The notes below the pieces were generated by a model. The model was not told the DNA's origin. It was given only the letters and a program-made list of their open reading frames with translations, and searched no databases. Shown piece after piece: positions 5,636 to 36,117 of a stretch of 38,100 nt of DNA. Location of the stretch: the NCBI GenBank assembly GCA_937867305.1, contig CALMKJ010000123.1:1-38100 (forward strand). Reading direction: 5' to 3'. The position numbers were made by a program, and so were the translations under genes. Origin of the DNA: an uncultured Ectothiorhodospiraceae bacterium (GTDB lineage Bacteria; Pseudomonadota; Gammaproteobacteria; JAABTG01). Within the stretch, counting starts at the first letter, position 1. Each line of letters opens with the position of its first letter.

Positions 5636-5659
5636 CCCGGCGCTTTGTCGCGGGTTTTT
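5636..5659 (+). terminator. Intrinsic terminator after kdsB
   Basis: CCCGGCG (5636-5642) pairs with CGCGGG (5649-5654) around a CTTTGT loop with one bulged G, and five Ts follow at once (5655-5659). It ends the comEC-kdsB transcript before the phosphatase gene. Confidence 0.65.
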
Positions 5660-5828
5660 ACATTTCCGTACCCTGCGGTCTCGGAGTGTGACGCAGGCCG
5701 CGGAATCTGCTCGGATTCCCGAAGTGAGCACAGAACTTGCTTCGGTCGGCGGCAACGCCCGGCCCGAAGTGTTCGGGACGAGCGTCGAACGGTTCGCCCC
5801 ATCCAGAATCCTGCCGCTCGACGAGGCC

Positions 5829-32529: not shown

Positions 32530-32607
<78 letters not shown>

Positions 32608-32645
32608 TAAATCAATCAGTTGCAGAGAGGGGTGAGAAACCCCAG

Positions 32646-32663
32646 TCGGCGATCAGGCGCCGA
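32646..32663. terminator. Candidate terminator between tRNA-Pro and guaD
   Basis: TCGGCG / CGCCGA with a 6-base loop, followed on the plus strand by TGCATTT. On the minus strand TTTCTC lies a little further on. A second small hairpin GGGGT/ACCCC lies just before it. It could serve both convergent genes. Confidence 0.4.
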
Positions 32664-32669
32664 TGCATT

Positions 32670-33140
32670 TCAATACAAGGTTTTGTCGGTCTTCTCCATC
32701 CAGCCGTCGAACAACTTCCTGGTCTCGGGCATCGGCAGACGCTTCATCGCCACGTAACGCGAGGCGGGGGGCTTGGCCAGTTCCTCGTAGATGAGTCTGT
32801 CGTTGAAACCGATGCGGGCCGCGTCGTGCCGGTCGGCGGCGTAGTACACAGTCTTGATCTGGGCCCAGTAAACAGCCGACAGGCACATGGGACAGGGTTC
32901 ACAGGTGGCGTACAAGACGGCGTTGGTGAGGTGAAACCGTCCCAGTGCCTTGCAGGCTTCACGGATGGCCACCACCTCGGCGTGAGCGGTGGGGTCGTTG
33001 CTGGACGTGACCTGGTTGCAGCCGCGGCCAATGATCGCGCCGTCGAGGACGATGACGGCTCCGAAGGGGCCACCCCGGTTGGCGGCGACACCCTTGAAGG
33101 CCTCTGCGAAGGCTTCTTGCATGAAATTCGCGTGCGACAT
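32670..33140 (-). CDS. guaD: Guanine deaminase (CMP/dCMP deaminase fold, GuaD type)
   Basis: Zinc enzyme that converts guanine to xanthine. The 156 residues carry the deaminase motif H53-A-E55 (SNDPTAHAEVVAIREACK) and P-C83-P-M-C86 (CEPCPMCLSAVYWA). The regions GGPFGAVIV, FNDRLIYEE and the aromatic C-terminus ending in Y closely resemble Bacillus-type GuaD, where the C-terminal swap closes the active site. ATG at 33140 has AGGGG about 9 bp upstream. It stands alone, convergent to tRNA-Pro and divergent from the YaiI gene; no other purine catabolism genes are present. A related nucleoside deaminase activity cannot be excluded. Confidence 0.9.
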   Translation of the reverse strand: MSHANFMQEAFAEAFKGVAANRGGPFGAVIVLDGAIIGRGCNQVTSSNDPTAHAEVVAIREACKALGRFHLTNAVLYATCEPCPMCLSAVYWAQIKTVYYAADRHDAARIGFNDRLIYEELAKPPASRYVAMKRLPMPETRKLFDGWMEKTDKTLY

Positions 33141-33214
33141 GTCTTGGCCCCTGCACCCTCGTTCCTGATCCCGGCGGAGTTCCTTCGGGTCGATGACCCA
33201 CGGGTTTTTCGCTG

Positions 33215-33670
33215 ATGCGGATCTGGGTCGACGCGGACGCCTGCCCCAGGGTGGTCAAGGAGATCCTGTTCCGCGCCGCCGAGCGCTTGCGCGTGTCCCT
33301 GGTCCTGGTCGCCAACCAGCCCGTCGTGGTTCCGCGGTCCCCCCACATCCGCGCCCTGTGCGTTTCGGCGGGCTTCGACGCGGCGGATAACCGGATCGTG
33401 CGTGAGCTCGAGCCCGCCGACCTGGTGGTCACGGCGGACATCCCCCTGGCCGCCGCGGTGCTCGAGAAGGGCGGCCACGTCCTCAGCCCGCGTGGGGAGC
33501 GGTACACTCGCGACAACATCCGCGATCGACTGGTGATGCGTGACTTCATGGAGACACTGCGCAGCAGTGGCATGGTGACGGGCGGCCCCCCGCCACTCTC
33601 GCAGACCGACCGCAAGGCGTTCGCCGACGCGCTGGACCGCTTCCTTGCCGGCGGCGAGGCCGCTCGCTAG
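33215..33670 (+). CDS. YaiI/YqxD family protein (UPF0178, DUF188)
   Basis: A 151-residue protein with the family pattern: [24 protein letters not shown] at the N-terminus, [38 protein letters not shown] and [23 protein letters not shown]. The aspartates in DADACP and TADIPLA suggest a PIN-like metal nuclease fold; function is not established. ATG at 33215 lacks a clear Shine-Dalgarno, but it is the only start that gives the conserved N-terminus. Its stop shares the bases CTAG with the stop of the convergent gene. Confidence 0.93.
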
Positions 33671-34287
33671 CTCGGCCGACCTGCGGGAGGTCGGCCTGCC
33701 AGGCGCACGAGGGTTTCGTGGTCCGGTTCCGGCGCGCTGCAGCGTCGGCAGCGCCCCTGGCCCTGCGGGTAGAGCCGGCCGCACGCCAGGCAGACCCGCT
33801 CCGGACCATCCCACTCTGCCTTCTCGGGCCAGTCGAGCCCGGAAAGCTTGAAGACCCTGTCGCCCGCTCGGAAGTATGCACACAGCTCATCGGGCAGCCG
33901 CAGGGTGACCTCCCCGCCGTCCCGGTTCCTGCCCCGCGAGGGGTTGCTGTCGTGCGGGTGCCCCTCGCGGCGCACCCGCATCTGGGTTGCGCTCACTTCC
34001 TGCACCACCCCGAGCCAGCCCTGCGTCGTCGCCCGCCGGGACCACCGGGCCAGGAGGAAGAAGACCAGGGCCGCGAAGCCGAAGGACGAGAGGACATCCT
34101 GGGTCAGTTCGCCCATCTCCCACCAGATGAGACCCAGGATGGCGGGCAGCATCAGAAGGAAGAAACCCCAGGCGTAGACGCGGGACTGGCGGCCATAGGC
34201 TCGCACCCAGGCCGCTGTCTGTTCCGGAGTCAGCGGGGACGGCTCAGCGCTGGAGCGCGTCTCGAATGCCCTGCTTGGCCTGCTCAA
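33667..34287 (-). CDS. Two-helix membrane protein with C-terminal zinc ribbon, unknown function
   Basis: I do not recognise a named family. The 206 residues show a polar N-terminus, two membrane helices (about 39-58 and 66-83), a polar middle part predicted to be cytoplasmic (90-160, with strand-like [27 protein letters not shown]) and a zinc ribbon C166-x2-C169-x10-C180-x2-C183. The start is TTG at 34287, inside the end of the upstream lipoprotein gene; AAAGGAA lies about 6 bp before it, while later starts lack a ribosome site. The 44-base overlap suggests coupled translation with the lipoprotein. The last codons lie in a perfect 9-bp inverted repeat. Confidence 0.75.
33674..33696. terminator. 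Hairpin at the convergent gene ends
   Basis: GGCCGACCT / AGGTCGGCC, a perfect 9-bp stem with a GCGGG loop, 3 bases after the YaiI stop and inside the last codons of the opposite gene. No T tract, so it may act as a weak bidirectional terminator or as 3'-end protection. Confidence 0.4.
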
Positions 34288-34696
34288 CGAGTTCCTTTCC
34301 CTGCCTGGTCACCGCGCCCTTGACCGCGCTCGCGAGCCCGGGCCGGGTCAGGCTCTTCCCGTCGATCTTCACCTCGGAGGGCGAGGTGGCATAGGCGGAC
34401 AGCGGGTCGCTCAACTGCAGAGCCGTATTCTCCAGTGCGTTGTATTCGTAGTAACACACGGCTTCTCCGTCCCGCCCCTGGGAGGAGTACCGCACCCGCA
34501 CGGCCGCGTGCTCGTATCCTTTCGTCTCGGCATCCGCGCCCTTGATCGTCGCGGACGAGCCGGTCTCGTTCAGCACGATGTCCTTGCAGAGGGTGACGCG
34601 CACGTCTTCCGTCGTTCGCGAGCAGCCGGGGAGCAGAAGTCCCAGGGTGAGGAAGACGACAGGGAAAAGGACCGTGGAACTTCGCAGCTCGCTCAC
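34244..34696 (-). CDS. Small lipoprotein of unknown function
   Basis: A 150-residue precursor with a lipoprotein signal: short charged start, hydrophobic core and lipobox LLPG-C25. The mature part is small and polar, with two further cysteines (LCKD and AVCYYEY) that could form a disulfide, and ends in an amphipathic stretch rich in Lys/Gln ([15 protein letters not shown]). Residue +2 is Ser, compatible with outer-membrane sorting. GTG at 34696 was chosen because AAAGGAG lies 9 bp upstream and the signal peptide then starts correctly; the frame is open further up. It overlaps the next gene by 44 bases. No homologous family comes to mind. Confidence 0.78.
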   Translation of the reverse strand: MSELRSSTVLFPVVFLTLGLLLPGCSRTTEDVRVTLCKDIVLNETGSSATIKGADAETKGYEHAAVRVRYSSQGRDGEAVCYYEYNALENTALQLSDPLSAYATSPSEVKIDGKSLTRPGLASAVKGAVTRQGKELVEQAKQGIRDALQR

Positions 34697-34750
34697 ACGT
34701 CTGGTCTCCTTTGGTAATCGTCGAAAAGCCAGCCAGCCGATGCCCGGCGC

Positions 34751-34779: not shown

Positions 34780-34852
34780 GGGGACGCCTCTGCCCTCATC
34801 TTCCTGCCAGTTCTGTCGGCGGCGGGCGCCTCCACCCTGGCGGTGCGGTCGC

Positions 34853-35968
34853 TCAGGGCCGAGTGAAGTGTGGTGCGCTCAGGGCTAGCGGGGCTCGCCG
34901 GCTCGGGCGGTGCCCACCGCGCCGGCCGGCGAGGAGAGCGGCAAGCCCCCCGCCCAGAAGAGCGGCTGTGGTGGGCTCGGGTACGGGGCGCGGCCCCAAC
35001 GGCCCTGCCGTCGACAACCATTCGGGGACGGTCGCCTGCGTGTCGCTGCCCGACCCTGGGCCCGGCAGGTAGGTGGGGAGGTGTAACCCGCCCGTCTCAA
35101 TCAAGCCTTCCCCGAGCTCCGGCGTGCTCAGAAGGTCCTCCGGGCTCACCGGAACCAGGTTCTGCGTCGCAGGACCACCAGACGGGCCGCCGGAGGGACC
35201 GCCAGACGGGCCCCCGGACGGTCCGCCAGACGGGCCCCCAGACAGGTACCCGGACGGTCCGCCAGACGGGTGCCCATACGGTCCACCGGACGGTCCGCCG
35301 GTCGTGGGCCACGCACGGAGAGCCGGGGAGGGGGGAGCGCCGGATCCCCCGCCCGGCGCTGCCACGGGGTCGGGGGTTGCGGACGGGGAACCCGACCGGT
35401 GGGACCTCGGGGGGTTGCCGGCCCCGGCCGGGGCTTCGGATGACCGGCTTCCCACATGAGGAGCGTCCGGGCCTCGTGCCGAGCGGGACTCTTCCCCCTG
35501 CGCGTCGTTCGCCGGCTCGCTGTTCCCCCGGAGTTGGGGCTCCTTCTCGCCCGGTGAGGTGTTTAGCATCAGGGCCCTCTCGGGGTCCCCCGGGGTCCGC
35601 TCGCCGACCGCGACTCCGACCCCGCCCCTGGCTCCGGCCCTGGTTCCGGCACTGACTCTGGTCCCGGCTCCGGCTCCGGCTCCGGCTCCGGCGACGCGCG
35701 CCGCGTCCGCTGCCTCGGCCGAGTGGTGGTGCCAGCAGACCGTGGGGAGTCGGTCTCTCTGGCCGACCTCCGGCTCGCGGAGAAGGCGTGGATGGGGGGC
35801 CACTCCGGGGTTGAGTGCGGCGATGGCGAGTGGGGGAGAGGCGACGCCCGGGGCCTGTCCGCTGCCCCCGGGTGAGCCGCTGTCGCCGGCAGGCGCGGCC
35901 GGGGCGAGGCACGCCAGGGCCCCCGCCAGCCAGGCACGTCGAATCGAGTCCAGGCAGGTCTGCGTCAT
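34853..35968 (-). CDS. PEP-CTERM sorting-domain protein with Pro-Ser-Gly-Gly repeats
   Basis: Predicted exported, exosortase-processed surface or matrix protein. In the 371-residue form from ATG 35968 there is a signal peptide (about 1-27, ending APA-G). A long low-complexity region follows, rich in Gly, Pro, Ala and Ser: five Ala-Gly pairs at 93-102 and about eleven tetrads of the type GGPS at 224-267. A short more regular part (268-325) leads to the PEP-CTERM tail: V-PEP-TT (329-334), a Gly/Ala/Leu helix and the arginine pair 349-350. Unusually, about 21 residues with further basic residues follow the first RR. An upstream TTG (36013) would place the start inside the sigma-54 -12 box and is rejected. 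No exosortase is present nearby. Apart from the tail I recognise no domain. Confidence 0.82.
   Translation of the reverse strand: MTQTCLDSIRRAWLAGALACLAPAAPAGDSGSPGGSGQAPGVASPPLAIAALNPGVAPHPRLLREPEVGQRDRLPTVCWHHHSAEAADAARVAGAGAGAGAGTRVSAGTRAGARGGVGVAVGERTPGDPERALMLNTSPGEKEPQLRGNSEPANDAQGEESRSARGPDAPHVGSRSSEAPAGAGNPPRSHRSGSPSATPDPVAAPGGGSGAPPSPALRAWPTTGGPSGGPYGHPSGGPSGYLSGGPSGGPSGGPSGGPSGGPSGGPATQNLVPVSPEDLLSTPELGEGLIETGGLHLPTYLPGPGSGSDTQATVPEWLSTAGPLGPRPVPEPTTAALLGGGLAALLAGRRGGHRPSRRAPLALSAPHFTRP
35168..35299. repeat. 12-bp-period tandem repeat inside the PEP-CTERM gene
   Basis: About eleven degenerate 12-bp units (type CCGCCAGACGGG on the plus strand) encode GGPS tetrads with variants GGPY, GHPS and GYLS. 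The reading frame is kept throughout, so copy-number change would lengthen or shorten the protein in steps of four residues. Confidence 0.85.
35663..35692. repeat. Hexanucleotide repeat encoding Ala-Gly pairs
   Basis: Five consecutive GCCGGA-type units (minus strand) encode (AG)5 in the PEP-CTERM protein. Degenerate related codons continue on both sides. Confidence 0.75.
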
Positions 35969-36008
35969 GGGTCGATCTCTGTCTCGCGATACACCTGGTC
36001 GGGGTATC

Positions 36009-36023
36009 TGCAAATTCAGTGCC
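36009..36023 (-). promoter_or_regulatory. Sigma-54 (RpoN) -24/-12 promoter of the PEP-CTERM gene
   Basis: The minus strand reads GGCAC-TGAAT-TTGC-A, with GG at 36023/36022 and GC at 36011/36010. The spacing is exactly 10 bases between GG and GC; against TGGCAC-N5-TTGCW only the leading T is replaced by C. Initiation is expected near 35998, giving a 30-base leader to the ATG at 35968. No sigma-70 boxes compete here. Confidence 0.7.
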
Positions 36024-36055
36024 GATAACTCTCTTTTCTGACGTTCACCATGATT

Positions 36056-36068
36056 TATCAGCGGGTTG
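36056..36068 (+). promoter_or_regulatory. Consensus IHF binding site
   Basis: TATCAG-CGGG-TTG fits WATCAR-N4-TTR at every position. It lies about 58-70 bp upstream of the inferred sigma-54 start, the usual place for an IHF bend between enhancer and promoter. Confidence 0.5.
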
Positions 36069-36117
36069 TAGCAACCCCCTCAGGCCTTTTAGCGAGCGCG
36101 GGCATCCCCGTCTGGAG

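Follow-up and report, generated by a model that had tools for sequence, protein, structure and literature searches.

The window, by which we mean the whole analysed stretch of 38,100 nucleotides (the entire contig), carries on its minus strand a gene for a 371-residue protein with a predicted signal peptide at one end and a PEP-CTERM tail at the other, preceded by a sigma-54-like promoter match. Its features are collected in Table 1.

Table 1. Features at the locus and their positions in the window
Feature	Position	Strand	Basis or remark
PEP-CTERM protein gene, 371 aa	34853-35968	minus	starts with ATG at 35968; last base of the stop at 34853
Predicted Sec signal peptide, residues ~1-27 (RR, AWLAGALACLAPAAPA)	35888-35968	minus	sequence and hydropathy
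Second short repeat, 6/18-bp units, AGAGAGAGTRVSAGTRAG	35622-35692	minus	
GGPS-type tetrad array	35168-35299	minus	12-bp units, eleven in all, with a higher-order period of 36 bp
PEP-CTERM tail (PEP motif, hydrophobic stretch, RR)	34919-34987	minus	profile matches
Sigma-54-like -24/-12 site, CGGCACTGAATTTGC	36010-36024	minus	1 mismatch; 42-56 nt upstream of ATG
Segment absent from congener G001 (gene and promoter region)	34793-36077		50 unrelated bp in G001 instead
Perfect inverted repeat GGGTTG-TAG-CAACCC (plus strand)	36063-36077		3 nt between arms; upstream edge of the G001-absent segment

The protein and its tail

The first-pass annotation, made from the letters of the window, described a frame with a signal peptide, a low-complexity body and a PEP-CTERM end, and our analysis agrees with it. 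The frame is open for 371 codons from its ATG, the N-terminus (MTQTCLDSIRRAWLAGALACLAPAAPAG) resembles a signal peptide with the classical n/h/c pattern, judged by eye and by hydropathy (maximum at residues 12-28), and Gly, Pro, Ser and Ala together make up 59% of the body. An alternative TTG start at 36013 was dropped, since it overlaps the sigma-54-like site.

An ATG frame of at least 371 codons arises in 0.5% of composition-matched shuffles of the segment, so that the length of the frame is by itself modest evidence for the gene. The tail, the predicted signal peptide and the putative promoter, which share one strand and frame, would jointly be stronger evidence than the length. On the other side, GC at the three codon positions (0.76/0.72/0.79) is atypical and the bias towards Gly, Pro, Ala and Ser accounts for only part of this, which counts against the explanation that we favour below.

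The tail (PEPTTAALLGGGLAALLAGRR) passes the TIGR02595 profile that had been proposed as a check, with 19.4 bits against a cut-off of 16, and the PEP-CTERM assignment thus stands. With PF07589 it reaches 24.3 bits (E 1.7e-4) in a scan of the whole genome and 19.3 bits, slightly below the Pfam cut-off of 20.7, when the protein is submitted to hmmscan alone.

The view that the body resembles no known domain has also held up: neither Pfam nor NCBIfam gives a match in it, no homologue of it was found among 95 relatives, and a search of an 84,980-species genome collection with exact peptide patterns, confirmed by tblastn, returned none. When 369 genomes of the class were searched with the last 104 residues, five weak matches turned up outside the source genome. 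Four of these, read over their whole length, are similar only in the tail and just before it and have unrelated bodies; the fifth is a PEP-CTERM gene of the congener (L027) with a different body of its own. The body is repetitive and species-specific, and it is probably disordered. No homologue of the body offers interspecies codon substitutions against which to test the frame, and this also counts against the favoured explanation.

About eleven GGPS-type tetrads encoded by 12-bp units had been reported, and eleven is indeed the count, in the order GGPS GGPY GHPS GGPS GYLS, five further GGPS, and GGPA. Relative to the consensus of the unit there are 23 codon differences, of which 18 are synonymous and 5 change the amino acid, and in pairwise comparisons of the units 129 of 196 differences fall at third positions. 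This is the pattern expected of a translated and constrained repeat, and it supports the frame. It does not prove it, because antisense frame +1 likewise has its variable repeat columns at third positions.

The upstream region

The site at 36010-36024 is the top sigma-54-type match in the window, and 0.4% of shuffled 200-bp upstream regions score as well. In our opinion this is moderate evidence for a sigma-54 site, and transcription of the gene by sigma-54 seems plausible. The distance lies inside the range given for motif 2 by Haft et al. 2006 (PMC1569441), and -24/-12 sites also precede several other PEP-CTERM genes of the source genome and of the family. RpoN dependence has been demonstrated for a PEP-CTERM gene of Aquincola, pepA (PMC9850573).

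Regulation by PrsR is another matter. Several other PEP-CTERM genes, L004 and L005 among them, are preceded by a TGTCGG..TTTTACA box that agrees in both sequence and position (32-92 nt before motif 2) with the PrsR enhancer box, motif 1 of Haft et al. Upstream of the 34853-35968 gene the best motif 1 score is 6.4; L004 and L005 reach 22.8 and 25.1, and the sites from which the matrix was built 22.8-29.3. A search for a common upstream motif likewise recovered a PrsR-box-like motif in the other PEP-CTERM genes and not in this one. Given the absence of motif 1, control of the gene by PrsR is not supported. The best PrsR-box-like match of the window (TGTCGCGGGTTTTTACA, score 17.1) lies at 5646-5662.

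The sorting system of the genome and the congener

The first-pass annotation saw no exosortase nearby and regarded the gene as an isolated substrate. For the 38-kb window, and hence the contig, the former is correct: it contains no exosortase. For the genome it does not hold. The assembly (2.80 Mb in 222 contigs) encodes two exosortases: XrtA, on contig 208, scores 356.6 bits (cut-off 208), and one of the XrtD type, on contig 26, scores 590.3 bits (cut-off 400). It also has seven PEP-CTERM tails above the Pfam cut-off, that of the present gene included, which leaves at least six others. Lack of any exosortase in the genome had been named as grounds for abandoning the assignment, and with XrtA and XrtD in the assembly these grounds fall away.

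PrsR (740.9 bits) and PrsK (808 bits) are encoded together with XrtA on contig 208. The genes adjoining XrtA on the same strand encode an XrtA-system deacetylase, an ATPase, an outer-membrane protein, a tyrosine kinase, a chain-length determinant, an export protein and a glycosyltransferase, besides PrsR and PrsK, and by sequence the whole reads as the standard XrtA cluster with its EPS genes. GC3 of these genes (L147:2928-14983) is 0.95-0.97, that of the genes of the window 0.80-0.91. Contamination is unlikely, since the PrsR region is 94% identical to that of the congener.

Neither is the isolation of the substrate gene a puzzle, because Haft et al. found that more than 65% of PEP-CTERM genes seem to make up an operon by themselves, behind a long upstream region, so that stand-alone genes distant from the exosortase are normal for the system. 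According to the same authors, fewer than 10% of these genes match any Pfam family, most show no homology beyond the tail and vary from one congener to another, and for many of them a close relative has no equivalent (PMC1569441). A substrate gene without an exosortase close by is thus not anomalous once the whole genome has been searched.

In G001, the only other genome of the genus in a set with one genome per species, the flanks of the locus are kept at 87-90% DNA identity, YaiI and LysE being 93-94% identical, and the segment from 34793 to 36077 is missing, from which it follows that either acquisition or loss of the gene took place inside the genus. G001 is the only genome with both YaiI and LysE flanks; G002-G004 retain YaiI only. 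Named relatives picked up with YaiI reach no more than 70% identity, which assigns the window to the Gammaproteobacteria/Proteobacteria without pointing to a genus. Between the eight PEP-CTERM frames of the source genome and the eight of G001 we found two full-length orthologue pairs (L005/L044 and L008/L050) and one partial pair (L004/L035). So few pairs would fit a rapid turnover of PEP-CTERM genes, and the absence of gene and promoter together from G001 matches the turnover between congeners described in PMC1569441.

The neighbourhood differs from the congener elsewhere too: 32610-33201 is replaced by ~226 bp in G001. It contains a cytidine-deaminase-like gene (32670-33140, minus strand) directly after tRNA-Pro (32530-32606). 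Two further minus-strand frames, 33667-34287 and 34244-34702 (or 34777), have no Pfam match, and one of them looks lipoprotein-like by eye (LLPGCS).

Interpretation and alternatives

We believe, with a probability of about 80%, that the gene stands alone, turns over rapidly and encodes a substrate of the XrtA PEP-CTERM/exosortase system of its own genome. Transcription by sigma-54 RNA polymerase would start from the -24/-12 site; Sec would export the 371-residue protein and signal peptidase remove its leader. Held by its C-terminal hydrophobic stretch and RR, the protein would then stay in the inner membrane until the XrtA of contig 208 recognises the PEP motif and cuts off the tail, after which the low-complexity GGPS body would be released or handed to the exopolysaccharide matrix. 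By analogy with known substrates, the body may serve there as a flexible spacer or as matrix filling. In short, the product is most likely an exosortase-A substrate that evolves fast and is bound for the EPS matrix.

It can be argued instead that the frame is open by chance in GC-rich DNA, or is decaying, and that it has a PEP-CTERM-like end but yields no functional protein. Long frames arise more readily at 73% GC, and the failure of every homologue search, the atypical codon-position GC, the absence from G001 and the missing PrsR box all agree with such a view. A chance frame would nevertheless have to account for a tail with its E value on a genome-wide scale, for a length rarely reached in shuffles, for the synonymous bias within the repeat, and for a signal peptide, a tail and a sigma-54-like site in the proper place, all agreeing on one strand and frame; we therefore consider it unlikely.

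That the protein is genuine and processed by XrtD instead of XrtA is very improbable. The genome does encode a high-scoring XrtD. Still, a VPLPA-type tail is the type after which XrtD is named, the tail here reads PEP followed by TTAALL, and L008 and L010 of the same genome, with VPLP/PLPA-type tails, suit XrtD better. We give equally little credence to the idea that the segment came in whole as a mobile cassette, one end of which is marked by the inverted repeat; this idea is compatible with an XrtA substrate. The borders of the segment against G001 are sharp, but neither a target-site duplication nor a mobility gene is present, the inverted repeat has no counterpart at the opposite end, G001 carries unrelated DNA rather than an empty site, and gain and loss are not separable without a syntenic outgroup.

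Like the XrtA substrates described by Haft et al. (EpsH/XrtA, TIGR02595/PF07589; PMC1569441), the protein has a predicted signal peptide, a homology-poor body and a PEP motif with hydrophobic stretch and basic tail. It is likewise encoded by a single gene with an intergenic upstream region and a sigma-54-like site, comes and goes between congeners, and shares its genome with XrtA, PrsK and PrsR encoded on another contig. It differs in its unusually Gly/Pro-rich body with the GGPS array, in the lack of a recognisable PrsR box, and in ~19 residues beyond the basic cluster (RR), rather more than usual. What is new is an orphan XrtA-type substrate with a repetitive body; the sorting system itself is already known. 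As a more speculative and rather doubtful extension, the array could be an extensible flexible spacer of a lineage-specific matrix protein, its length tuned by slippage and its gene under sigma-54 control through an activator other than PrsR.

With the PepA flocculation protein (NF033554; Aquincola pepA, PMC9850573) it shares the PEP-CTERM tail, a proposed association with EPS and a sigma-54-type promoter (TGGCAC/CTGCTT in pepA). It is not a full-length PepA: its score with NF033554 is 18.1 bits (cut-off 80), from the last 23 matched residues only, and the body is unrelated. One such gene leaves the picture of the PEP-CTERM system unchanged; it does add to the fast-evolving exosortase substrates a clear case of presence and absence within a genus, promoter region included.
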